From: Rhodospirillaceae bacterium
GTDB taxonomy: Bacteria > Pseudomonadota > Alphaproteobacteria > Rhodospirillales > Rhodospirillaceae
Assembly (NCBI GenBank): GCA_029245025.1
Contig: JAQWQC010000014.1
Location: 1-64,000 of the forward strand
Reading direction: 5' to 3'
DNA length: 64,000 nt
Shown piece by piece: positions 887 to 13,797 of the stretch (positions are counted from its first letter, which is position 1; each line of letters starts with the position of its first letter). Both the position numbers and the translations under genes were made by a program. A model generated the notes under the pieces. That model saw nothing but the letters and a program-made list of their open reading frames with translations. It had not been told where the DNA came from and did not search any database.

Positions 887-3052
887 ATGATTAGAAAGCT
901 TGTGAGGGATAAAGCCATGGAAAGACAAAGGGGTTCTGGTTTTTTTTGGTTTTCCACATACCTCACGATATCGTTTTTCTTCCTTCTTTCGAATCAAGCA
1001 GACCTTCGAGCCTCTGATAAAAACCAAGCTTTAGTTGTTACGGTTGACCGTTTAGAAAACGCAGATTCTGAACCGGGAAACTGGCTCTCCCATGGCCGGA
1101 CATATTCCGAACAACGATACAGCCCACTTAACCAAATTGATTCTTCTAGTGTCGAAGACTTAGCGCTAGACTGGTATTTCGATCTCAACGACCACAATGT
1201 TGTTGAAGCGACGCCCATTGTTGTTGACGGTCTCATGTACGTGACTGAAGCCATGGGTAAGGTCTTTGCCTTGGACGCGAGGACCGGGCAAGAGGTCTGG
1301 TACTTTGACCCTGAAGTTCCCCCTGAAACGCTTGTTCGGGCCTGCTGTCAGCCGGTCAACCGCGGCGTGGCAGCTGGCAATGATAAAATCTTCGTTGGCG
1401 CGCTCGATGGCCGACTCATCGCCCTTGACGCGCAATCGGGCGAAAAAATATGGGAGCAAGTCACCACTGATCCGACGCAGGCGTACACCATCACGGGTGC
1501 TCCGCGCGTTGTGAAAAACCGGGTGATCATCGGCAATGCGGGCGCTGAGTATGACGTGCGCGGGTATGTGTCTGCTTACGACGCAGATACAGGAGAAATG
1601 GATTGGCGCTTTTATACGATACCCGGTGACCCCAGCCTGGGGTTCGAAAACGATGCGTTGAAAGAAGCGGCGGAAACCTGGACCGGTGAGTGGTGGAAAA
1701 TCGGCGGTGGCGGGACGGTCTGGGACGCTATTGTTTATGACCCTGATCTCGACCTCCTCTACATAGGAACCGGAAACGGAACGCCGTGGAATCAAACCGC
1801 GCGGTCACCTGACGGGGGAGATAATTTGTATCTGTCCTCCATCGTGGCATTGCGCCCGGATACAGGGGAGTACGTTTGGCACTATCAGACGACGCCGGCT
1901 GACAACTGGGATTTTACGGCAACGCAACCGATCATTCTCGCCGACATCGAGATAGAAGGGGCGGTCCGCAAGGTCTTGATGCAGGCGCCAAAGAACGGCT
2001 TCTTTTACGTGTTGGACCGCGTTACGGGAAAAGTGATTTCCGCTGAGCCGTTTTCTGGTGTGAATTGGGCTAGTCACATAGATCTTGAGACTGGGCGACC
2101 TATCGAGAATCCCGGCATGCGACCTGTTGGTAATGAGCCCATTTATATAGAGCCCGGGCCGTCAGGCGCACACAATTGGAATCCAATGGCCTTTAGTCCT
2201 GAAACCGGCCTTGTTTACATCCCCACGCTTGATAGTCGGTTCTTGTGGCGGAATGATCCGAATTTCGAATACGCGCCGGGTCTTTGGAATTTGGGATACG
2301 ACCTTAGCGTCAAGATGGATTTCTCTAGTGTTGGGGTGGAGCGAAAGAGGGGCAGTTATCTCCTCGCGTGGGATCCGGTTACACAAAGTGAAGCTTGGCG
2401 TGTAGATGGAAGTGGAGGCGGCACTCTGGCCACAGCAGGCGGTTTGGTCTTCCGCGGCACACGGGCAGGTCAGTTTGCGGCCTATGATGCCTCTACTGGA
2501 CGAGAACTCTGGTCTGCTGATGTTCAAAACAGCGGCGTGGCTGGGCCTATTTCCTATCAGATCGGGGAAGATCAGTATGTCGCCATCGCGCTTGGGCGCG
2601 GCGCTGCGACCATGATGACGGGTGCTGTTTATCGGCCATCCGATTTACCCCATGCGAACCGCGTGGTTGCTTTTAAGCTCGGTGGTGCGGCAACGCTGCC
2701 AGAGTACACCTACACGCCTGAAGACCTGAGGGCGCCGCCCACCGAAGAGATTGATGCGGAGACCGCCGCTGTGGGTGTGGGCCGACAGGTCTTTCACCGC
2801 TATTGTTTTGGGTGTCATGGCCGTGAAGCACGGGGCAACAGGATTCAGCCTGACCTTCGTTTCTCCGATTACCTGGACAATGGGTTATGGAATGATGTGG
2901 TCTTAGACGGCCTGTTGATGGGGGTTGGCATGGTGTCGTTCAGCGATGAGGTGAGCGCTGACCATGCTGAAGCCCTTCGCCAGTACGTTATTTTTGAGGC
3001 GCAAAGGGCTAATCAATCGACATTTAATCAAAGTGGTGGGCCGGTTCAATAA
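887..3052 (+). CDS. PQQ-dependent dehydrogenase with C-terminal cytochrome c domain
   Basis: The 721-residue length fits the quinohaemoprotein alcohol dehydrogenase type (type II ADH), which oxidises alcohols or related substrates in the periplasm and passes electrons through haem c. Seen: an N-terminal hydrophobic export segment (about residues 19-36), the VVEATP segment with a Glu expected to bind PQQ/calcium (about 107), the vicinal Cys-Cys pair at 153-154, an IGTGNGTPWN segment near 297, and DNWDFT at 339-344, where the family carries its catalytic Asp. A CFGCHG haem motif (C640, C643, H644) begins the cytochrome domain. An internal ATG at codon 11 is an alternative start. The substrate is unknown. 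It stands 97 bases before the exported operon and may be its redox partner (inference). Confidence 0.9.
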   Translation: MIRKLVRDKAMERQRGSGFFWFSTYLTISFFFLLSNQADLRASDKNQALVVTVDRLENADSEPGNWLSHGRTYSEQRYSPLNQIDSSSVEDLALDWYFDLNDHNVVEATPIVVDGLMYVTEAMGKVFALDARTGQEVWYFDPEVPPETLVRACCQPVNRGVAAGNDKIFVGALDGRLIALDAQSGEKIWEQVTTDPTQAYTITGAPRVVKNRVIIGNAGAEYDVRGYVSAYDADTGEMDWRFYTIPGDPSLGFENDALKEAAETWTGEWWKIGGGGTVWDAIVYDPDLDLLYIGTGNGTPWNQTARSPDGGDNLYLSSIVALRPDTGEYVWHYQTTPADNWDFTATQPIILADIEIEGAVRKVLMQAPKNGFFYVLDRVTGKVISAEPFSGVNWASHIDLETGRPIENPGMRPVGNEPIYIEPGPSGAHNWNPMAFSPETGLVYIPTLDSRFLWRNDPNFEYAPGLWNLGYDLSVKMDFSSVGVERKRGSYLLAWDPVTQSEAWRVDGSGGGTLATAGGLVFRGTRAGQFAAYDASTGRELWSADVQNSGVAGPISYQIGEDQYVAIALGRGAATMMTGAVYRPSDLPHANRVVAFKLGGAATLPEYTYTPEDLRAPPTEEIDAETAAVGVGRQVFHRYCFGCHGREARGNRIQPDLRFSDYLDNGLWNDVVLDGLLMGVGMVSFSDEVSADHAEALRQYVIFEAQRANQSTFNQSGGPVQ

Positions 3053-3149: not shown

Positions 3150-3653
3150 ATGGTTTGGCAACGAACTCAATCAATAGGCAAAGTGAGCATGCCGTTTTAT
3201 GGAATGCTGCTATCGCTGATTGTCAGTTTTCCTGCGCAGTCCGAAGACGCGTGGGGCGGCATCCGCCTTTTTGAGGCAGACCTCTCCGCAGGCTACCAAA
3301 CTATCCTAACCCAGAGTGATGGCGTCGGATTTGCAAAGGTGGATTTCGATGTCAACACGATGAAGATGACCTGGGAGGTCGAGTACGAAGGCCTCACGTC
3401 ACCGCTGACAGGTATAACGCTACACGGTCCGGCGCAGCCCGGCACCAATGCGGTCGCAATTATTGACCTCGGTGTAAATGGCTTGAAAAGCCCAATCTCC
3501 GGCTCAATGACGGTATCAGATGCACATGTCCAATACATGCTGTTGGGGTGGACCTATGTGCTTCTCAAAACAGAGAAATATGACCATGGCGAGCTACGCG
3601 GGAAGCTCGACACTGTCCCGCCTCCGGGGTTTAAGAAAACCAAATTTAACTAA
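3150..3653 (+). CDS. Exported CHRD-domain protein
   Basis: A 167-residue protein with an N-terminal hydrophobic signal sequence (about residues 14-29, MPFYGMLLSLIVSFPAQS) followed by a CHRD domain over about residues 38-158. The domain shows the usual pattern: an aromatic-rich strand (MTWEVEYEGLTSPLTGITLHG), a bridge region (PGTNAVAIIDLG) and the terminal HGELRGKL motif. CHRD domains were first described in chordin and occur in many secreted bacterial proteins of unknown function. The gene lies 30 bases upstream of the 404-residue unknown gene and likely opens the coupled run that follows. I infer a periplasmic or cell-surface location; a function cannot be read from sequence. Confidence 0.8.
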   Translation: MVWQRTQSIGKVSMPFYGMLLSLIVSFPAQSEDAWGGIRLFEADLSAGYQTILTQSDGVGFAKVDFDVNTMKMTWEVEYEGLTSPLTGITLHGPAQPGTNAVAIIDLGVNGLKSPISGSMTVSDAHVQYMLLGWTYVLLKTEKYDHGELRGKLDTVPPPGFKKTKFN

Positions 3654-3683
3654 GGTGGGGCGACCGGGAATAACAGAGCAGGA

Positions 3684-4898
3684 ATGCATGAGATGACCTG
3701 TTGCAGAGGAAAGAAAAATAGAGTGGCTATCAAATACGAATTCGGATTGATCTCGAAGAGCGCCGTTCATGTTTCCGCGACCGCGCTTATGATGTGGGGT
3801 TTGTCTGCGCCAGTTCAAGACGCATCTGCAGCTGAAGCGAACAGGCTCGGTTTTGTTGTCGAGTCTTGGTACACCGCCATTTACGACACTGAATATATGG
3901 AGGAGTGCCCAGAAGGGATCGTCATCGGTAATGATGAGATTTGGTTCAACGGGCTGTCTCCTGAAGACAAAGACATCGAGACCGGGAGTGGCACGCTTCA
4001 AGTGTTAGACTTGCCCCGACGGCCGACCCAATACCTGCGTGGTCCTAATGGGGAGGATGTTTGCTGGCATCCAGAATCGGTCATCGATCCGCCTATGCGT
4101 ACGGTCACTGGCAAGTATTCCTACGGTATGAATCTCGATGGAAACGAGAACGGGAACGCAACGCCCAACACATGTGCTCATGGCAATTTTCAGACGCCGG
4201 ATGGATCAGTGTCTGGTGTGGACAACCAGCTTTATAGGTTAATGGGCTGCGTCTACGGTTACCGATCCGAAGGCTACCTTGAACATCACGCTAACCGGGA
4301 GCGTCAGGATGAGAGCAAAGGGATTATTCTCATTGACGTGAAGAATGTCGACGACCCACGCAATGATGACGATGTTGAAGTCTCATTTTACCTGTCAGCA
4401 ACGGATCTCCATTTTGATACGGCCGGGCGTATTGTGCCGTATGGCAGCTATCAAACAATAGAGAACAGATACGGTGACACGGTATCAGGTCAGATAATCA
4501 ATGGTGTGCTCACCACAAATTCTGGTGATGTCACGCTGCCGCTTCATGGAAATGATGGTTTCACTGACATGGTGTTCCGCGACTTCCGTATTGAAATGGA
4601 TATTTCTGAGGAAGGCGAACGGGCAAAAGGTCTCTGGGCTGGTTATCATCCGGTGTCTAGTTTTTGGGATCACATACAGAAGGTGCAGCACAATGTTCCG
4701 GTGGGGCAGTACAGTTGTCCAGCGATGTATGTCGCCGCGAACGAGCTTGCAGACGGCTATCCTGATCCTGAAACCGGCCAGTGTACGGCATTGTCATCTG
4801 CATTCACCTTCGATGCAGTCGCAGGGTTTATTATTACCGATAATCATAAAAGTGATGCGGAACGTTTGGCTGAAAACATAACCAGTGTGCGCAAATGA
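3684..4898 (+). CDS. Exported protein of unknown function
   Basis: I do not recognise this 404-residue protein. An export signal is plausible from about residue 25 to 50 (AVHVSATALMMWGLSAPV, then an Ala-rich cleavage-like site). The mature part is acidic and rich in Gly, Asp and aromatic residues. It has conserved-looking cysteines in CPEGIVIGNDEIWF (near 74), DVCWHPES (near 131), TPNTCAHGNFQTPDG (near 160), LMGCVYGY (near 190), YSCPAMY (near 348) and TGQCTALS (near 370). These could form disulfides in the periplasm. The stop overlaps the next start by ATGA, so translation is coupled to the DUF1592-type gene. The context strongly suggests it works with the DUF1592 and DUF1552 proteins. Confidence 0.8.
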   Translation: MHEMTCCRGKKNRVAIKYEFGLISKSAVHVSATALMMWGLSAPVQDASAAEANRLGFVVESWYTAIYDTEYMEECPEGIVIGNDEIWFNGLSPEDKDIETGSGTLQVLDLPRRPTQYLRGPNGEDVCWHPESVIDPPMRTVTGKYSYGMNLDGNENGNATPNTCAHGNFQTPDGSVSGVDNQLYRLMGCVYGYRSEGYLEHHANRERQDESKGIILIDVKNVDDPRNDDDVEVSFYLSATDLHFDTAGRIVPYGSYQTIENRYGDTVSGQIINGVLTTNSGDVTLPLHGNDGFTDMVFRDFRIEMDISEEGERAKGLWAGYHPVSSFWDHIQKVQHNVPVGQYSCPAMYVAANELADGYPDPETGQCTALSSAFTFDAVAGFIITDNHKSDAERLAENITSVRK

Positions 4899-6601
4899 CC
4901 TTCAAAAGTAACGAGAGTAGGGAGTCTGGCCGCCGTTGGTCTTCATGCCTGAGGGCGATGTTCACGGTCACTGCCATCCTTTTGACCGCTTCGGCTTGTA
5001 GTGACCCCGCGCCCCATATTGAAGGGGCAGAGCCAACGTTGCGGCGTTTAACAGAGCAGCAGTACCGCAACGTCGTTTCGGACTTGTTTGGTGGCCATAT
5101 TATAGTCTCGGGGAGCTTTGATCCGATTCTCCGGAAGGATGGCCTGGTCTCGATTGGTGCTGGTAACGCAACTATTTCGGCATCCAGCTTTGATAAATAT
5201 GAGAAACTGGCTCACGCCATCGCAAATCAGGTTGTAAGCGAACAGAATCGTGGACTGTTTGTACCATGTGAGCCAACTCGCATTAGTGGGCCAGATGAGT
5301 CCTGTGCGAAAGCATTTTTGCAGCCCGTAGGTCGTTTATTGTTCCGCCGACCGCTTGATCACTTAGAGCTGTCGCAAGCTGTTGATTTGGCCAATGCAGC
5401 AAGCGACCAACTCGGCAGTTTCTACGAAGGCCTCGCCTTCGGTCTCACGTCTTTAATGGTAAGTCCAAAATTCCTCTTCGTTATAGACGAGGTTAAAGAT
5501 GCATCGACTGAGGATGTGGAGCTTACAGATTATGCGAAGGCGGCTCGGTTGAGTTTCTTCCTTTGGAATACCACGCCTGATGTGGCGCTGCTGGATGCTG
5601 CAGACTCCGGAGCGCTTTCCACGCCAAAAGGCTTGAAGGCTGAGTTAGACCGTATGATGCAATCGCCGCGACTGCGCCGTGGTGTGCAAGCCTTCTTTGC
5701 GGACATGTTTCATCTTGATGAGTTTGACCATCTGGAAAAAGACAATCTCATCTACCCGGCATTTGACCCGCAGGCCATGGATGATGCTAGGAAGCAACTC
5801 CTCCTTACAATCGAACACCACTTGCTTGATGAGGACGCGGATTACCGAGATCTGTTTGTGACCCGCAAGACGTTTATGAGCGGGCCCTTGGGCCGTGTTT
5901 ATAGAACGCCAGTCTCAGAACCTGATCTGTGGACGCCGTATGAATTTTCAGACGGCGAAGGGCGATCAGGCATTCAGTCTCTTGCAGGATTTATTGCGTT
6001 ACACTCTCACCCGGGTCGAAGTTCCCCTACCATACGCGGAAAAGCCGTCAGAGAATTACTCTTGTGCCAAACTATTCCTGATCCCCCAGCTGATATAGAT
6101 TTCAGTGTCTTTAATGAGCCCAGTTCGCAGGAATTGGTCGCGCGAGAACGACTTGATGTACACAATTCTGTACCATCCTGCGCCGGGTGCCATAGGCTCA
6201 CGGACGGCATTGGTCTATCTCTCGAGAACTACGATGGTGCAGGGCAATTCAGAACGACGGATAGGGGTTTTGAAATTGACGTCAGCGGAAACCTTGATGG
6301 TATTGATTACACGAACCAGTTCGGATTGGCCAATGCTTTAAGTCAGAACCCTGCGATTCCGGCGTGTCTGGTGGAACAGACGTTGGCCTATGGTTTGGCG
6401 CGCAAGCCAGGTCCTGAAGAAAAAGATTGGGTTGGGTTTCTTTTCAATCAATTTGCTGAAGGCGGGTATCGCTTTAAGCCCCTCCTTCACTCTGTTGCCG
6501 CAAGTGATAATTTTTTTGCCGTTATTGCGCCACAACAGGGGCGCGGTGCTGAAACACGAGTGGGAACTCTGAAGACGCCAAATAAAGGTTCAGACTCATG
6601 A
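4895..6601 (+). CDS. DUF1592/DUF1588-type exported lipoprotein with CxxCH motif
   Basis: 568 residues. A lipobox-like LLTASACSD follows the hydrophobic signal (Cys near residue 35). The domain order matches the planctomycete-type multidomain family: LRRLTEQQYRNVVSDLFG (DUF1587-like start, about 50), a DUF1595-like helix block (about 140-195), a DUF1592 block with ARLSFFLWNTTPD (about 220-290), DUF1588 with the SCAGCHRLTDGIGLSLENYD motif (C429, C432, H433), and a C-terminal DUF1585-like block. The CxxCH suggests covalent haem c, but in this family the motif's role is not established. Start and stop overlap neighbours by ATGA on both sides. The next gene, DUF1552, is its usual partner in other genomes (family knowledge). 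Confidence 0.88.
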   Translation: MTFKSNESRESGRRWSSCLRAMFTVTAILLTASACSDPAPHIEGAEPTLRRLTEQQYRNVVSDLFGGHIIVSGSFDPILRKDGLVSIGAGNATISASSFDKYEKLAHAIANQVVSEQNRGLFVPCEPTRISGPDESCAKAFLQPVGRLLFRRPLDHLELSQAVDLANAASDQLGSFYEGLAFGLTSLMVSPKFLFVIDEVKDASTEDVELTDYAKAARLSFFLWNTTPDVALLDAADSGALSTPKGLKAELDRMMQSPRLRRGVQAFFADMFHLDEFDHLEKDNLIYPAFDPQAMDDARKQLLLTIEHHLLDEDADYRDLFVTRKTFMSGPLGRVYRTPVSEPDLWTPYEFSDGEGRSGIQSLAGFIALHSHPGRSSPTIRGKAVRELLLCQTIPDPPADIDFSVFNEPSSQELVARERLDVHNSVPSCAGCHRLTDGIGLSLENYDGAGQFRTTDRGFEIDVSGNLDGIDYTNQFGLANALSQNPAIPACLVEQTLAYGLARKPGPEEKDWVGFLFNQFAEGGYRFKPLLHSVAASDNFFAVIAPQQGRGAETRVGTLKTPNKGSDS

Positions 6602-7950
6602 CTCTCTTGAAGATAAGCAAACCCAACAGGCGTGCATTTTTACGCGGAACATTGGCTGGGGCCACCGTGGGTGTTGGTGTGCCGTTTTTGAATCTGTTCC
6701 TGAATGAGCATGGCTCGGCTTTGGCTTCGGGGGCTCCCATGCCATTGAGGTTTGGAACTTGGTTTTGGGGCCTTGGGCATACACCAGGACGTGGAATGCG
6801 GCCTCTTGAAGGAACCGACTATGAATTCATCGAAGAATGCACGTCTCTCGAACGGTATAAAAAAGAGTACATAAACTATTACAGTGGGTTCAATACGCCA
6901 CTCGATGGCGCGGCCAGTGCGGTCCACTATACCGGTTGGGTTGCTGGGAAGACGGGGAGTGTTCCGCAAGGCTTTGGGGAGATTCCAGCCCCCACCCTTG
7001 ATACCATCATTGCAGATAAGATCGGTACCCAAAGCCGATTTAAGTCGCTCGAACTCTCGAGCACGGGCAACCCGATAGACAGTTACTCTTATCGTGGCAC
7101 GGGCAATCACAATGCGGCCGAAGTGTCGCCCCTGAATTTTTATCTCCGGCTATTCGGAACCGAATTCCGCGACCCGGCTGATAAAGATTTTAAACCTGAC
7201 CCTCGTGTCATGTTGCGGCAAAGCGTTTTGTCTGCCGTGGAGGACGATCGCAAACGATTGGTCCAAACGGTGGGCTATGACGACAAGGCGCGACTGGACC
7301 AGTATTTCACATCAGTCCGTGAGCTAGAGCAGCAACTGGAAGTGTCACTGTCAGCGCCGCCAGCCATGGACGCTTGCCATAAACCAGAGCAGCCAGAGGA
7401 AGGTCCACTTGGGTACGAAGTGGAAACCGTCAATGGTACCCATGATACCCTGGCGCAGATTTTAGCGCTGGCACTCGCTTGTGATCAGACCAGAGTGTTC
7501 AACATGATGTATTGTCAGGCGGCATCTGAGTTGCGGGTTAAGGGCACGACGTTCACCCACCACATCCTGTCCCATGAAGAGCCGCCCGATGATCACCTTG
7601 GATACCAGGTGCAAACGGCATGGTTTAACGAACGAAGTTTCGAGGCCCTGGCTCGTATGCTTGATACGTTTTCTAGCATTCGGGAGGGCGATGGAACTCT
7701 CTTAGACAACATGCTTGTTTTTGCTCAAACGGACACCAGCGATGCTAAAACTCACTCCGTGATCGGTATTCCAAGCCTGACGATTGGCAAAGCTGCTGGT
7801 CGCGTAAAGACTGGCTTGCACATAAATGGCAGTGCTTCACCGCAATCTCGCATAGGTTTGACGTTGATGCAGATGATGGATGTTCCAGTAGCCGAGTGGG
7901 GTACGCGCTCGCTGCGAACGTCTGACCCGATCTCTGAGATCTTGGCATGA
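6598..7950 (+). CDS. DUF1552 domain protein, Tat-exported
   Basis: 450 residues. The N-terminus has a twin-arginine type signal (NRRAFLRGTLAGATVGVGVP), so folded export by Tat is likely. The rest matches DUF1552: a PLRFGTWFWGLGHTPGRGM start to the mature region, a long middle part and the C-terminal SVIGIPSLTIGKAAGRVKTG region. DUF1552 is distantly related in layout to DUF1501/sulfatase-like exported proteins, but its chemistry is unknown. It overlaps the DUF1592-type gene upstream and the PF03640 gene downstream by ATGA, so the three are translationally coupled. I infer a joint periplasmic function, perhaps oxidative because of the CxxCH partner and the nearby PQQ enzyme. Confidence 0.88.
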   Translation: MTLLKISKPNRRAFLRGTLAGATVGVGVPFLNLFLNEHGSALASGAPMPLRFGTWFWGLGHTPGRGMRPLEGTDYEFIEECTSLERYKKEYINYYSGFNTPLDGAASAVHYTGWVAGKTGSVPQGFGEIPAPTLDTIIADKIGTQSRFKSLELSSTGNPIDSYSYRGTGNHNAAEVSPLNFYLRLFGTEFRDPADKDFKPDPRVMLRQSVLSAVEDDRKRLVQTVGYDDKARLDQYFTSVRELEQQLEVSLSAPPAMDACHKPEQPEEGPLGYEVETVNGTHDTLAQILALALACDQTRVFNMMYCQAASELRVKGTTFTHHILSHEEPPDDHLGYQVQTAWFNERSFEALARMLDTFSSIREGDGTLLDNMLVFAQTDTSDAKTHSVIGIPSLTIGKAAGRVKTGLHINGSASPQSRIGLTLMQMMDVPVAEWGTRSLRTSDPISEILA

Positions 7951-9044
7951 TGAAGGCTCTAAAGGCGCTTGGTATTCTTGCGACCGTCTCTGGAACAGCC
8001 GCTGCGCAAGTCGATGGCGTTCCAGAAGGAGTTGATATTCAAAGGACAGGGGCAGGCGTTTACTTCATGACCCAGACACAGCAGTCGCTGTATTGGAATG
8101 GGTCCGAGGTGACGGCAGGCGAAGTGACCTGCCTTGAAGACTGTTTGGAGACATGGGTTCCTTTCCAGGCCAATTCAAATGGTCAGGGCGAGGGGTTATG
8201 GAGCGTCATCAACCGCCCAGATGGCTCTTTGCAGTGGGCCTACAAAGACAGGCCACTCTACACCTATGTGAAAGATACGTTCCCAGCAGCTAGGCTCGGA
8301 GACGGAGCGGCGCGTGGGCGATGGCAAGTTTTGTTTGAAGTGCATCAGGTCCCAGCCAGTATGACAATTGCATCGACAGCACTTGGTTTTGTGCTGGCCG
8401 ACCATAGGGGGCGCACGCTTTACTCTCTCGCGACCGTGCCTGATTCTGATGCCCTATCTACGCTTAGGAATCATTGGACCCCATTTGAAGCCCCATGGCT
8501 TGCTTTAGATCAAGGGGATTGGAGCATTCAAACTAGCGCCGCAGGTGCTCGTCAGTGGTCGTATAACGGGGATATATTGTTTACCTACGACAAGGACAAT
8601 GATCCGCAAGATGTTCACGGGCATGGATTGGACGGTGAGTGGTCCGCCGTCATCCTAGAACCCGCGCCTGGATTACCGTCGTGGATTACTGTCGAACAAG
8701 TGGACCTTGGGCTAGCCTATGCCAATGAGAATGGGCTTACGATTTATGCGCCGGTTGACATCAACGCAATTAATGCGGCGCAGTCGTGCCCCGAAGAATG
8801 TATGAAAGCGAATTGGCGGGCAATTCTAGCAAAGCCTGGAGAGCAATCCGTTGGAAACTGGGTCATTGTTGAAAACAAGGCCGGGCAACTGCAGTGGTCC
8901 TATAAAGGACAACTTCTTTACACACATACTCGGGATAGAATGCCCGGAGAAATGAAAGGGAATGGCATCGCTGTTGGCTATCGCATTGGTGACGGTTGGC
9001 GCATCATTCCTGTTGATAGCGGACTTCGCAGATCCCGGACCTAG
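7947..9044 (+). CDS. Secreted PF03640-like repeat protein (three repeats)
   Basis: 365 residues with a short N-terminal signal (about residues 1-20, ending GTAAAQ). The mature protein is three copies of a roughly 100-residue unit resembling the Secreted repeat of unknown function (PF03640, COG4315). Each unit carries a strand with G.TLY-like sequence, a W-P-F or W-A segment, then QW(A/S)Y(K/N)G..L(Y/F)(T)Y..D. The closing motifs are QWAYKDRPLYTYVKD, QWSYNGDILFTYDKD and QWSYKGQLLYTHTRD. Repeats 1 and 3 keep a CxxxC pair (CLEDC, CPEEC); repeat 2 lacks it. The gene overlaps DUF1552 by ATGA and closes the operon before a terminator. The family's role is unknown. Confidence 0.85.
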   Translation: MMKALKALGILATVSGTAAAQVDGVPEGVDIQRTGAGVYFMTQTQQSLYWNGSEVTAGEVTCLEDCLETWVPFQANSNGQGEGLWSVINRPDGSLQWAYKDRPLYTYVKDTFPAARLGDGAARGRWQVLFEVHQVPASMTIASTALGFVLADHRGRTLYSLATVPDSDALSTLRNHWTPFEAPWLALDQGDWSIQTSAAGARQWSYNGDILFTYDKDNDPQDVHGHGLDGEWSAVILEPAPGLPSWITVEQVDLGLAYANENGLTIYAPVDINAINAAQSCPEECMKANWRAILAKPGEQSVGNWVIVENKAGQLQWSYKGQLLYTHTRDRMPGEMKGNGIAVGYRIGDGWRIIPVDSGLRRSRT

Positions 9045-9110: not shown

Positions 9111-10412
9111 ATGAATGAACATGTTGGCACTATGACATCGGCCCAAGAGTTCAAGAGCGGCTGGCGGGTTTTACTGGTCGCTGCCATGGGCGTGACCTGC
9201 GGTATTACGGCTGTCCCGATCTACACCATCGGCGCTTTTGTCGGGCCGTTGGAGGATGCGTATGGATGGTCGCGCGGTGCCATTCAAAGCGCGACGGTTT
9301 TCTGCTACCTCACTCTTATTTTTGCTGGTCCCGTCGCTGGGTATCTAACAGACCACTACGGGCCACGGCGGGTAGCGCTATGGTCTGTATTTGGTATGTC
9401 CGTGGCTGTCGGTAGCGCCTCGGTTTTGGCGGGCACGCTCTGGGGTTTGTATCTTGCCTATGCGTTGATCGGAATTCTTGGTGCTGGCACATCACCTGTG
9501 GTCTGGACACGGGCCGTGAGTAGCTGGTTCGAAAAGAAACGCGGGCTTGCTTTTGGGCTGACTCTTATGGGGACTGGCTTGTTCGCCACTGTGGGCCCCC
9601 TTTATGTGACCTGGGCTATTGCAGAATACGGATGGCGCGGTGGTTACTTGGCCCTTGCTTTTGTGCCCATCGTATTTGTCTTGCCGCTTGTCTACGTCTG
9701 GTTTTTTGTGCGCGCGAGTAGTGGTGATGACTCAGCACATGCTGCTGAAAACGTTGATAACCCTGAGGCGGGGATGGACCTAAATGCAGCTCTAAAAACG
9801 TCTCAGTTCTGGATCATCGCTTTTTCGTTTCTGTTTTTTTCAACCAGTATTTCGGGCTTTATCTCCAGCTTCATTCCGATGTTAACGGATGGTGGTCTAT
9901 CGCGCGCTGAAGCGGCTTCCATGGCCGGTTCTATCGGGCTGGCGGTTCTTCTTGGGCGTGTTCTTACGGGTATCCTGTTGGATCATGTTCGAGCCTCAGT
10001 CTTGTCGACAGTTGTTATGGCTTTCCCCGCCATTGGTTGTCTGCTTTGGGGGCTCGGTGTGCTCGGGCCGTCCGGCCCGTTGATTGCAGCAATTTTGGTC
10101 GGATTTGCAGGCGGTGCGGAATTCGATTTGGTCGCTTATATGACGTCCCGCTATTTTGGGCTGCGCCACTACGGCAAACTCTACGGTATTCTATTTTCAC
10201 CTGTGATTGCTGGCGCCGCTATTGGTCCACTTATGTTTGGGTTTGGGTTCGATAACTTTGGGTCGTACGCACCAGTGCTCCTTTTGGCTGCGGCTCTGTT
10301 TGTGGTGGGCGGTCTTTCTCAGTTGTTTCTGGGAAAATACCCGAGCTCTTTCATTAAGGGTTGTCCTTCCCGAAAACCTCATCCGCTTGAAATAAGCTTG
10401 GATCATCTGTAA
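9111..10412 (+). CDS. MFS transporter, C-terminus replaced by IS sequence
   Basis: 433 residues with about twelve membrane segments and the MFS loop motif GYLTDHYGPRR (about residues 76-86). The overall layout resembles the oxalate/formate antiporter-like or monocarboxylate-type MFS branch; the substrate is not readable. A second ATG at codon 8 is an equally good start. The native gene appears cut: from about base 10359 the sequence is the left inverted repeat of the adjacent IS, so roughly the last 17-19 residues (from about KGCPSRK to the end) are IS-encoded and unlike a transporter tail. The twelve membrane segments seem complete, so function may survive. Confidence 0.85.
   Translation: MNEHVGTMTSAQEFKSGWRVLLVAAMGVTCGITAVPIYTIGAFVGPLEDAYGWSRGAIQSATVFCYLTLIFAGPVAGYLTDHYGPRRVALWSVFGMSVAVGSASVLAGTLWGLYLAYALIGILGAGTSPVVWTRAVSSWFEKKRGLAFGLTLMGTGLFATVGPLYVTWAIAEYGWRGGYLALAFVPIVFVLPLVYVWFFVRASSGDDSAHAAENVDNPEAGMDLNAALKTSQFWIIAFSFLFFSTSISGFISSFIPMLTDGGLSRAEAASMAGSIGLAVLLGRVLTGILLDHVRASVLSTVVMAFPAIGCLLWGLGVLGPSGPLIAAILVGFAGGAEFDLVAYMTSRYFGLRHYGKLYGILFSPVIAGAAIGPLMFGFGFDNFGSYAPVLLLAAALFVVGGLSQLFLGKYPSSFIKGCPSRKPHPLEISLDHL
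10359..10391 (+). repeat. IS left terminal inverted repeat
   Basis: Matches the reverse complement of the right end at 21 of 33 positions with no gaps. TGTCC near the tip and ACCTCATCCGC (10376-10386) are identical and equally spaced in both ends. Confidence 0.75.
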
Positions 10413-10422
10413 TCCGATTGGC

Positions 10423-11442
10423 ATGGCCCAGTTCACGATACTTTTCTTTCTGACTATCTTGGCGCTTGTTAAGTCACCGAAGCGTCTCGCTTTAGAGAAC
10501 ATCGCCCTTCGGCATCAGGTCTCGGTTTTGAGGCGGAAGCATCCGGGTCGTATCCGAGTTTCCCGCATAGATCGGTTGTTTCTGAGTTGGCTGACAAAGG
10601 TATTCCTTTCAGTTCTTGACGCCATTGTAATTGTGAAACCTGAGACGGTGTTGAGGTGGCATCGGCATGGGTTCAGGCTGCTTTGGCGCTGGAAGTCCCG
10701 TAATCTGGGCGGTCGGCCAATCATCGATAAAGAACTACGCGATCTCATCAAGATGGTAGCCCGCGACAATCCGCTATGGGGTGCTCCACGTATCCATGGA
10801 GAGTTGCTTAAGCTGGGTTTTGATGTCTCTGAATCGACTGTGAGCAAGTATCTCAAGCGAACTTATCGGCCCAAAGGCCAGAGCTGGAAGACGTTTATTG
10901 GCAGCCACAAAGAAGCAATCGCCGCGGTTGATCTATTCATTGTTCCTACAGTCGGCTTCAAGATTCTGTATGGAATCGCAATTCTACATTTAGGTAGTCG
11001 TAAACTTGTTTGGACCAACGCGACCTATCACCCCACAGCTGAGTGGATTGCCAATCAGGTTAGCCAGGCCTTTCCTTGGGAGACCGCACCGCAGTATCTC
11101 GTGCGCGATCGAGACGCCATTTACGGAAATGTGTTTAAACGACGATTGGACGCAATGGGTATCAGAGACCGCCCGACGGCATATAGGTCTCCTTGGCAAA
11201 ACGGATATGTAGAGCGTGTCATTGGGTCGATACGACGAGAGTGTCTGGATCACACGATCATCTTTGGTGAGGCTCACTTGCGCCGAACGCTTAAGAGTTA
11301 CGCTCAGTATTACAATCGGGCTCGGACTCATCTGTCTTTAGAGAAAAATTCACCGGTTCCGCGCCCTGTTGAGCATGATGGCGCTATTACCAAGTGTCAG
11401 CACTTAGGTGGACTGCACCACGAGTACCGGCGGATGAGGTAA
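10423..11442 (+). CDS. IS transposase, integrase-core (rve) DDE type
   Basis: 339 residues. The N-terminal part has the ENIALRHQVSVLRRK segment (about 25-39) and a helix-turn-helix-like NPLWGAPRIHGELLKLG (about 116-132) shared by a large group of rhizobial and marine integrase-core transposases related to the IS3/IS481 superfamily. The catalytic residues are visible: D170 (AAVDLFIVPT), D229 or D231 (LVRDRDAIYG) and E264 (NGYVERVIGS). The protein ends in GGLHHEYRRMR, whose codons run into the right inverted repeat. Length is normal for the group and no frameshift is seen, so it may be active. I cannot assign the exact IS family from sequence alone. Confidence 0.92.
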   Translation: MAQFTILFFLTILALVKSPKRLALENIALRHQVSVLRRKHPGRIRVSRIDRLFLSWLTKVFLSVLDAIVIVKPETVLRWHRHGFRLLWRWKSRNLGGRPIIDKELRDLIKMVARDNPLWGAPRIHGELLKLGFDVSESTVSKYLKRTYRPKGQSWKTFIGSHKEAIAAVDLFIVPTVGFKILYGIAILHLGSRKLVWTNATYHPTAEWIANQVSQAFPWETAPQYLVRDRDAIYGNVFKRRLDAMGIRDRPTAYRSPWQNGYVERVIGSIRRECLDHTIIFGEAHLRRTLKSYAQYYNRARTHLSLEKNSPVPRPVEHDGAITKCQHLGGLHHEYRRMR

Positions 11443-11727: not shown

Positions 11728-13797
11728 TTACAGCGTGTCTAAGGCCTCAATAAATGCGCCAGGGGTAAGTATTTGCGGCTGAACCTGGGGCTGCCCGGCG
11801 GCGTCATAGAGTACGTATAGCGGCACGCCAGATCGCCCGAAGGACTCCAGCGCCGCGGTGATAGAGGGATCCCGGTTGGTCCAATCCGCTTTCAGGTAAA
11901 CCACACCTTTGCTTTCTAGAGCGGCTTGAACGTCAGCGTTTGAAAGCACCGCTTTTTCGTTCACCAAACAGGTGATACACCAGGCGGCGGTAAAGTTGAT
12001 GAACACCGGTGTACCGCGCGCGCGCAGTTCATCCAGACGGGCGGGTGAATAAGGCTCTGAGTTGCTAGCCGCATTTCCCGCTTGAGCGGACTGTGCGTTT
12101 GGTGCTTGTGGAATACCTGCTAAGACGATCGCTCCAAGCGCTGCTGCAAACGCTAGTCCGGTTCCAATGACCGGCCGATCATCGCCGCTGCTTCCGATCA
12201 TCCAAGCGGTAAATGCCACGAGTATGATGCCGGCCAATGTCGCAGCGAGACCCATCGGATCTACTTGCTGTGCAACCACCCAGATGAGCCAGGCCACCGC
12301 CCCATACATGGGGAAGGCGAGCACCTGTTTGAAGGTTTCCATCCATGCGCCCGGCTTTGGTAATGCGCGGGCGGCGGCAGGCATGAAACCAATCAGCAGA
12401 AATGGAGCTGCAAGTCCGAGGGCGAGCCCTTCAAACACAGCAATAACAACCAGAGGGGGTTGAGTCAGCGCATAGCCGATCGCTGGTGCCATCAGTGGGG
12501 CCGTGCAGGGCGTGGCGACTACAGCAGCCAAGACACCGGTGAGGAATGATCCAACAGGACCGTCTCCCTTTATCCAGGTCGAACCAAATCCCATCAAAGC
12601 GTTGCCGATGTTGAACACACCCGACAAGCTCAAACCAACGGCGAGCATGATGTAGGCTAAAATTGTGACAAAGCCCGGGGATTGGAGTTGGAATCCCCAA
12701 CCCAGCCGGTCGCCGCTCGCTTTTAATACAAGAAGCACAGCCACCAGAACGCCAAATGATGCCAGCACACCAGCGGTGTAGGTGAGGGCGTCGCGACGGG
12801 CGCTGCCGCCTTCGCCATACTTAACGACCGCCAGTGCTTTCATGGACAAGACGGGCAAAACGCAGGGCATTAGATTCAACAAGATGCCGCCAAGGAATGC
12901 GAATAGCAGCGCTGCGACCAAGCTCATATCAGTTGCGGCCATCTCCGCAACCGGCGGAGCAGCTGCGCCAAGTATCATGGGAGCATTTTCAAAGGCGAAA
13001 GCGCGTTGTGTTAATCCTGCACCGACGGTGATCAGTCCGCCCAGAGTCTCCACTTGATCCGGGCCTGGCACTGTCGCAACCGTAAGGCGGAATCCTGTAG
13101 CCGTCCGCGTCACTCTTTGCGGCGCCGTGTTGTCCATTAGGTATGTTGCGTATGGAAAAAAAGTAATCTCTCCACTTGGTACATCACCCCAATCTCCATC
13201 CACAGTTAGCACTTCGGGTGTCATCGATGCGCTGACTGCCCCTGGTAAGGGTTCAGGGAGGGCGAGGGCAACGGAATTTAAGTATGCCCCATCCATGGTT
13301 GAGGCTTGCGGAGCGGCTGGGTCGATCGTGATGGGGATTGAGAACGAACCATCTTCAGGAATACAAATGTCGGCGCAGACTAACCATGTAACACGCGCAG
13401 AAAGAAGCACATTGCCTGTCTGTGATTCGTCGGCGACGGATAGACGGGCCAGCAAGGTGACTTCATCGCTATAGCCGAAGTTCATGAGGGTGCCGTAAGG
13501 CTGGCGCTCTGGTGTTGGCCATTGAATAGGCCCTGCTTCAAGATCGGGCACCGAGCTCCAATTGATCATCGTGGCCAGGCCTGAGTCACCTGGATTGCGC
13601 CAATAAGTATGCCAGCCTGGGTCTATCTCTAGTTTGAGGCCGACCCAAATTGTATCCCCGGGTGCGACGGCGGGGCGTTCCGTCATCAGTGTGGCGGTTA
13701 CGCGTTCTGTCGTCACAGTCGCTTGAGTCCATGCGGGGCCGACAGATGACAGCGCGAATGTGCCGATCAGGCATATAGTGGTGAGAAAGCGATTCAT
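11728..13797 (-). CDS. DsbD/ScsB-like protein-disulfide reductase
   Basis: 689 residues in three parts. After a signal sequence (about 1-24) comes a periplasmic domain with a Cys pair (CADICIPEDGSF, near residue 135) as in the DsbD alpha domain. Next is a membrane domain of about eight helices with the paired cysteines LNLMPCVLP and VATPCTAPLMAP. Last is a C-terminal thioredoxin domain with AAWCITCLVNEKAV (near residue 605). Such proteins carry electrons from cytoplasmic thioredoxin across the membrane to periplasmic partners; the layout matches the ScsB/DsbD family. The start ATG at 13797 gives a good signal peptide. Partner proteins are not adjacent. Confidence 0.88.
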   Translation of the reverse strand: MNRFLTTICLIGTFALSSVGPAWTQATVTTERVTATLMTERPAVAPGDTIWVGLKLEIDPGWHTYWRNPGDSGLATMINWSSVPDLEAGPIQWPTPERQPYGTLMNFGYSDEVTLLARLSVADESQTGNVLLSARVTWLVCADICIPEDGSFSIPITIDPAAPQASTMDGAYLNSVALALPEPLPGAVSASMTPEVLTVDGDWGDVPSGEITFFPYATYLMDNTAPQRVTRTATGFRLTVATVPGPDQVETLGGLITVGAGLTQRAFAFENAPMILGAAAPPVAEMAATDMSLVAALLFAFLGGILLNLMPCVLPVLSMKALAVVKYGEGGSARRDALTYTAGVLASFGVLVAVLLVLKASGDRLGWGFQLQSPGFVTILAYIMLAVGLSLSGVFNIGNALMGFGSTWIKGDGPVGSFLTGVLAAVVATPCTAPLMAPAIGYALTQPPLVVIAVFEGLALGLAAPFLLIGFMPAAARALPKPGAWMETFKQVLAFPMYGAVAWLIWVVAQQVDPMGLAATLAGIILVAFTAWMIGSSGDDRPVIGTGLAFAAALGAIVLAGIPQAPNAQSAQAGNAASNSEPYSPARLDELRARGTPVFINFTAAWCITCLVNEKAVLSNADVQAALESKGVVYLKADWTNRDPSITAALESFGRSGVPLYVLYDAAGQPQVQPQILTPGAFIEALDTL

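Follow-up and report, generated by a model that had tools for sequence, protein, structure and literature searches.

A set of five genes lies at positions 3150-9044 of the DNA analysed here, a stretch of 64,000 nt from contig JAQWQC010000014.1 of a Rhodospirillaceae bacterium (hereafter the window). The last four of these genes encode a 404-residue orphan protein, a DUF1592-type protein, a DUF1552 protein and a triple PF03640 repeat protein, and they constitute a conserved functional unit that is inherited together. It is proposed, with a confidence that is about evenly balanced, that this cassette is one exported multi-protein oxidoreductase module which some genomes hold in many diverged copies. 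In our reading it would be a haem-c oxidoreductase of the periplasm, present in multiple copies and with predicted location, activity and substrate; it would probably carry out oxidations beyond the inner membrane, possibly of steroid-like or other organic molecules.

Conservation and co-inheritance of the gene set

The pairwise distances of the four cassette proteins correlate with r 0.81-0.93 across 62 complete cassettes, which were placed under 24 genome labels (contig prefixes; loci from L078 on each carry their own label). When partners were shuffled within labels the mean correlations were 0.26-0.40, and for all six protein pairs the observed value exceeded that of every one of 500 shuffles. 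Among 73 related genomes of the window's family, in which the positives belong to 7 of 23 genera, the orphan is found in 37 and DUF1552 in exactly the same 37, and the copy numbers of the two per genome are correlated as well (Spearman 0.93, counts near 25 meaning at least 25). A sample of 299 genomes from the phylum contains the orphan in two and DUF1552 in six, including those two. In the other four (L119-L122), large DUF1592 frames of 858-2165 codons adjoin DUF1552, and the stretches read gave no match to the orphan, PF03640 or CHRD. The DUF1592-DUF1552 pair is therefore wider than the cassette.

A scan of species genomes with an orphan profile gave 168 relatives; the best 80 were kept, corresponding to 76 loci that were read with profiles built from the copies in the window's own genome. 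The loci are drawn from few clades, with some genomes contributing many. Including the window and three further loci of its own genome (L014-L016), 109 distinct orphans were counted, of which 66 have at least 6.5 kb downstream. Sixty-two of the 66 are from other genomes and four from the window's own (three canonical, the fourth a fusion on contig C20); one further complete own set was left out of the count as too near the end of its locus. The neighbourhood search across genomes for the orphan, DUF1552 and PF03640, which the original prediction made from the window's sequence had named as its check, shows the canonical one-strand order orphan-DUF1592-DUF1552-PF03640 for 47 of the 62 orphans of other genomes. 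Among the 15 non-canonical ones, two stand alone (L053, L066), one is fused to PF03640 (L054), one is accompanied by PF03640 only (L069) and two have no PF03640 (L084, L086). The remaining nine are in five loci (L083, L085, L087, L089, L092) that have PF03640 and DUF1552 upstream of the orphans, and in three of these loci DUF1592 too, so in this group the gene set is permuted rather than absent.

In the window itself the five open reading frames were all found in the places and with the names that the prediction had given them, and the four genes that it described as overlapping in a row do so through three ATGA overlaps, orphan/DUF1592 at 4895..4898, DUF1592/DUF1552 at 6598..6601 and DUF1552/PF03640 at 7947..7950. 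Elsewhere, with the window and the own copies taken in, a 4-base NTGA overlap is present at 58 of 80 distinct DUF1592-DUF1552 junctions, 28 of 79 orphan-DUF1592 junctions and 16 of 73 DUF1552-PF03640 junctions; since such overlaps recur at many distinct junctions, they are more than chance. The orphan and PF03640 share one open frame in four loci (L016, L041, L042, L054), and CHRD and the orphan do so in another four (L025, L026, L063, L072). CHRD occurs near 33 of the 59 orphans that have sufficient flanking sequence on either side (22 upstream, 9 downstream and 2 fused), in some cases on the other strand or downstream. The prediction had been staked on a conserved co-occurrence of all five genes; this holds for the four overlapping genes, which are conserved together and often overlap or are fused, whereas CHRD accompanies them in these 33 cases only.

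The functional core might be smaller still, comprising the orphan, DUF1592 and DUF1552, with PF03640 and CHRD as clade-specific add-ons. This alternative, which is compatible with the oxidoreductase module and which we rate just short of an even chance, is favoured by the two loci without PF03640 (L084, L086), by the scanned Sphingobium loci, which are without both PF03640 and CHRD, and by the 26 of 59 orphans with CHRD missing nearby. On the other hand, the distances of PF03640 follow those of the other three cassette proteins with r 0.81-0.88, PF03640 lies in one frame with the orphan in the four loci named above, and in Novosphingobium RL4 a match to PF03640 lies immediately upstream. The cassette is found in named Hyphomonas and Peristeroidobacter strains and on Sphingobium plasmids, so that its function is testable by deletion in laboratory strains.

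Protein families and conserved residues

The DUF1592-type protein (4895..6601, forward strand, as are all five genes) has the domain order PSD3-PSD5-PSD4-PSCyt3-PSD2, all five Pfam domains scoring over their cut-offs, and a lipoprotein-type N-terminus in which the lipobox Cys column is C in 36 of 41 relatives. The haem-type CxxCH motif noticed at the outset is a single CAGCH in the PSCyt3 domain; its C429, C432 and H433 are invariant in 41/41 relatives, as are H423 and four further Cys, and no Met column reaches 85% in the same relatives. This pattern points to a single haem c in which the sixth ligand would be open or a residue other than Met.

The DUF1552 protein (6598..7950) matches the HXXSHH family PF07586 with an E-value of 1.8e-40 and 139.9 bits against a cut-off of 30. 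It begins with a Tat-type (twin-arginine translocation) RR, which is present in 26/26 relatives; R11, R12, H110, H322, H326, E363, D370 and H386 are invariant in all 26, and a metal site is possible. The HxxSHH motif is H-I-L-S-H-E in the window, and at the position of the last H 21 of 26 relatives have E while none has H; judged by its profile score the membership in DUF1552 stands, and the motif is read as a variant. DUF1552 may be related to the alkaline-phosphatase-like fold; its hhalign comparison with six DUF1501 proteins was not significant, with a probability of 1.3%, against 1.1% for the orphan as a control.

For the orphan (3684..4898, 404 aa, Sec-type signal) the Pfam and NCBIfam scans gave no match at E<=0.1. 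Pfam searches with 49 relatives returned no credible match, four single-member matches with E 0.034-0.095 being the only ones, and no PDB relative was found at E<=5. Fourteen columns are invariant in the 49 rows, including C25, D130-N131-Q132, R135, C139, D307 and D311 (mature numbering). Judged from these searches the orphan is an unnamed protein family, and the cassette thus adds a family without a Pfam or NCBIfam match. The PF03640 protein (7947..9044) carries three repeat stretches (2e-31) and the CHRD-domain protein (3150..3653, 167 aa) matches PF07452 with 3.6e-11, both with a Sec-type signal; the CHRD gene does not overlap the orphan gene and is separated from it by 30 bp. None of the five proteins scored over any NCBIfam family cut-off, and a PDB sequence-profile search gave nothing credible for the orphan, DUF1552, DUF1592 or PF03640. 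Export routes were judged by eye and from conserved columns.

The nearest described relatives of the cassette are the "planctomycete-specific cytochrome" genes with PSCyt3 and PSD1-5 domains. The section available of a study of Verrucomicrobia (PMC5615132) reports that PSCyt3 genes usually adjoin a family of unknown genes and are frequent in some genomes, and gives no function for them. The same domains, the CxxCH motif, the neighbours of an unknown family and the high frequency in some genomes are shared with our cassette. That section does not name DUF1552, which would presumably be the unknown family. The cassette differs in having a compact lipoprotein-type protein, an upstream orphan, DUF1552, PF03640 and often CHRD, and may be regarded as a compact version with a recurrent partner set. 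DUF1501-DUF1800 pairs likewise combine a Tat-type protein with a second protein of unknown function, according to the part of PMC5122149 that was available; they belong to other Pfam families, and the profile comparison of DUF1552 with DUF1501 given above was not significant. In four family-genome loci (L151, L153, L157, L158) a large gene stands just upstream of DUF1501 and may be a candidate DUF1800 partner. In the literature searched, no paper connects PF03640, CHRD or the orphan with either DUF1592 or DUF1552, and none gives a function for these families; our claim that the cassette is undescribed rests on that literature.

Neighbouring genes and the proposed function

Recurrent neighbouring genes were grouped into clusters, and Pfam supplied names for 20 representatives. 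The frequency of 15 kinds was then compared between 80 test loci and 20 hand-picked control stretches, each of 20 kb, taken from six genomes. Only the size of the contrast between test and control counts here, because the families had been picked for recurring in the test set and the enrichment is biased upward; per Mb, this contrast is 16 versus 0 for dihaem cytochrome c, 13 versus 0 for high-potential iron-sulfur proteins (HiPIP), 8 versus 0 for 4Fe-4S proteins and 7 versus 0 for molybdopterin oxidoreductase, with cupins (double 36 versus 2, small 24 versus 2, ChrR-type 13 versus 0), TonB receptors (36 versus 10), carriers of the major facilitator superfamily (MFS; 15 versus 2), SGL-type proteins (8 versus 0) and alpha/beta hydrolases (7 versus 2) also above control. 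Electron transfer by the cassette is supported by these neighbours; we infer the oxidation of organic substrates, the catalysis by DUF1552 and the difference in substrate from copy to copy. The five-gene redox system originally predicted is supported in its redox part by the invariant haem-c motif and the redox neighbours, while its CHRD member is frequent but not fixed.

It is proposed that the DUF1592 lipoprotein would bind one haem c in its PSCyt3 domain and act as the electron-transfer subunit, that the Tat-exported DUF1552 protein, folded before export, would carry the catalytic or metal site, and that the orphan and the PF03640 repeats would bind the substrate or hold the complex together. 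Electrons would then pass to small periplasmic carriers, the kind of which would differ by clade: sphingomonads would use cytochrome c' and cytochrome b561, and the window's clade the dihaem cytochrome c and HiPIP that stand beside some copies and not beside the window copy. The closest known counterparts are the cytochrome c'/b561 periplasmic electron carriers, whose genes lie directly downstream in sphingomonads; the window's clade differs in that HiPIP and dihaem cytochrome c take their place beside some of its copies. The substrates may be small organic molecules, some of them entering via TonB receptors; they might be of steroid type in Sphingobium, and many diverged copies would mean many substrates. 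A more elaborate form of this scheme, which we advance only tentatively and consider somewhat doubtful, is a class of periplasmic metallo-oxidoreductases composed of a haem-c lipoprotein, a Tat-exported DUF1552 catalytic subunit and an orphan substrate-binding subunit. It would exist in at least 20 substrate-specific versions in some genomes and would initiate, outside the cytoplasm, the degradation of compounds resembling steroids or terpenoids, with electrons going to the quinone pool or to high-potential carriers.

Alternatively, the cassette could be a module that oxidises carbohydrates (polysaccharides, oligosaccharides or glycosides), its orphan and PF03640 proteins serving to bind the sugar; we regard this as unlikely. 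A carbohydrate role has been proposed for Verrucomicrobia PSCyt proteins, whose genes come with carbohydrate-binding modules and are inversely related to the density of glycoside hydrolases (PMC5615132). A DUF1587 domain occurs with single-CxxCH cytochrome domains in Cbp2D of Cellvibrio japonicus, and the X183 cytochrome domain of this protein has been studied as an electron donor of lytic polysaccharide monooxygenases (PMC8981238, section available). Cbp2D differs from the cassette in being one large protein with a carbohydrate-binding module, and that section names no DUF1552, orphan or PF03640. The many copies per genome, a glycosyltransferase recurring in four loci and an SGL-type protein in five are also in keeping with a carbohydrate role, as are an alpha-L-rhamnosidase-type gene, a glycosyl hydrolase and a beta-xylosidase at most 13 kb from copies or orphans on Sphingobium plasmids. 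The TonB receptors near 18 of the 80 loci likewise fit, and no SusD that would make SusC/SusD pairs of them is among the 20 scanned recurrent neighbours. Against such a module, no glycoside hydrolase, lyase or carbohydrate-binding module is found among the 20 recurrent neighbour representatives or eight window proteins, the copy of S. herbicidovorans is closest to steroid/aromatic-type genes, and the glycosidases near it fit the sugar part of saponins.

It also appears improbable to us that the cassette is no enzyme system but an exported assembly that binds haem or metal, maintains the envelope or conducts electrons outside the cell. Every part looks exported and each cassette copy has a single CxxCH, as such an assembly would allow, and we know of no catalysis by PF03640 or CHRD proteins; however, at least 20 diverged copies in several genomes and catabolic neighbours fit a range of substrates better than a housekeeping role.

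Two candidate partners were rejected. The pyrroloquinoline quinone (PQQ)/cytochrome c dehydrogenase said to stand just upstream is indeed there, as a PQQ-type alcohol dehydrogenase with a cytochrome stretch at 887-3052, but it is not part of the set, as it is a neighbour in only one of 80 loci, the window itself. FAD_binding_2 flavoproteins occur at 11 per Mb in the test and 10 in the control.

The substrate proposal draws on plasmids. Among 72,556 plasmids the orphan is matched in 13 records, 12 of Sphingobium (11 Tom strains and S. herbicidovorans MH) and one of Novosphingobium RL4; the DUF1592 protein of S. herbicidovorans, used as a query, found the same 12 Sphingobium plasmids at >=79% identity, RL4 and three distant records. 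A cytochrome b561 gene lies ~1.85 kb past DUF1592, just past DUF1552, on 12/12 Sphingobium plasmids and ~2.2 kb past the DUF1592 match in RL4, where the PF03640 match is just upstream; in both loci scanned a cytochrome c' gene lies between DUF1552 and b561. In TomMM15 a TonB receptor gene and a reverse-strand gene come first, then the orphan, DUF1592, DUF1552, cytochrome c' and cytochrome b561; S. herbicidovorans MH has the same order, with a reverse-strand regulator in second place. In MH, HsaC-like, HsaA-like and KshA-type genes follow within ~7 kb of DUF1552; the HsaA-like (398 bits) and HsaC-like (269 bits) proteins both score below the NCBIfam cut-off of 450 each, and KshA_C is above its Pfam cut-off with 196 bits. 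HsaA-like genes of >=96% identity are present on the same 12 plasmids. The paper on these strains (PMC10653915) describes 14 isolates from alpha-tomatine-treated soils, naming TomTYG65, TomTYG72, TomTYG74 and TomMM15, and reports that S. herbicidovorans MH degraded alpha-tomatine and is without one steroid enzyme; a search for papers containing the words DUF1552 or DUF1592 did not return it.

Several observations weigh against the oxidoreductase proposal or its steroid part. Haem binding by the DUF1592 protein is predicted from its CxxCH motif; the neighbour counts carry the selection bias described above and hand-chosen controls, and FAD-binding (11 versus 10 per Mb), solute-binding (8 versus 18) and methyltransferase (7 versus 18) genes show no enrichment over control. 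Relatives of b561 are also on 42 plasmids outside the 12 Sphingobium ones and RL4. On the Tom plasmids the listed HsaA-like gene is far from the cassette DUF1592, and in TomTYG65 the orphan match is elsewhere, with none beside the DUF1592 gene. No PF03640 or CHRD match was found in the three Sphingobium DUF1592-DUF1552 plasmid loci scanned, nor in a fourth, examined for the second copy that it carries. The strains, and the 12 Sphingobium plasmids with them, are closely related, which makes the plasmid association a correlation only; the steroid link applies to sphingomonads alone. It is not transferable to the window's clade, because a search for HsaC at E<=1e-40 reached just 3 of the 73 family genomes, all cassette carriers and none over the cut-off, and gave nothing in the window's genome. 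A steroid ring pathway of the 9,10-seco type, considered for the window's own clade, was not found in this HsaC-type search of the family genomes.

Copies in the window's genome and flanking genes

The genome of the window (36 contigs, 3.09 Mb) has four DUF1552 genes, four DUF1592-type genes and five orphan genes. The four-gene set is present four times, once in the window and three times on contig C3. There, two sets diverge from a CHRD gene that lies between them, a second CHRD gene immediately precedes the third set on the opposite strand, and another is found apart from all three. The fifth orphan belongs to a fusion gene of contig C20 (L016 8122-10038) that also encodes PF03640 repeats; neither DUF1592 nor DUF1552 lies nearby. 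The window orphan is 43-46% identical to the other four; in a tree of 52 orphans, in which the sphingomonad rows have long branches and unsure placement, no two of the five pair and the place of the window copy is unresolved. We take the five for putative old paralogues.

The three C3 cassettes lie within ~26 kb (L014-L015, ~41-68 kb plus flanks), surrounded by double cupins, HiPIP, a relative of the dihaem cytochrome c, MFS and DASS carriers, an arylmalonate-decarboxylase-like protein and a PcaD-like hydrolase that scores just below its cut-off. Downstream of the C20 fusion (L016 12006-13705) are glyoxalase/VOC proteins that look exported by eye, and glyoxalase-family genes also adjoin copies in L123 and L145.

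In the window, Pfam and NCBIfam scans place the end of a TonB receptor (43-777) upstream of the PQQ-type dehydrogenase and an MFS carrier (9111-10412) downstream of the cassette. The MFS gene is directly followed by an rve_3 integrase-core, transposase-like gene at 10423-11442, and a DsbD-type thiol:disulfide interchange protein is encoded at 11728-13797, ~2.7 kb past the cassette.

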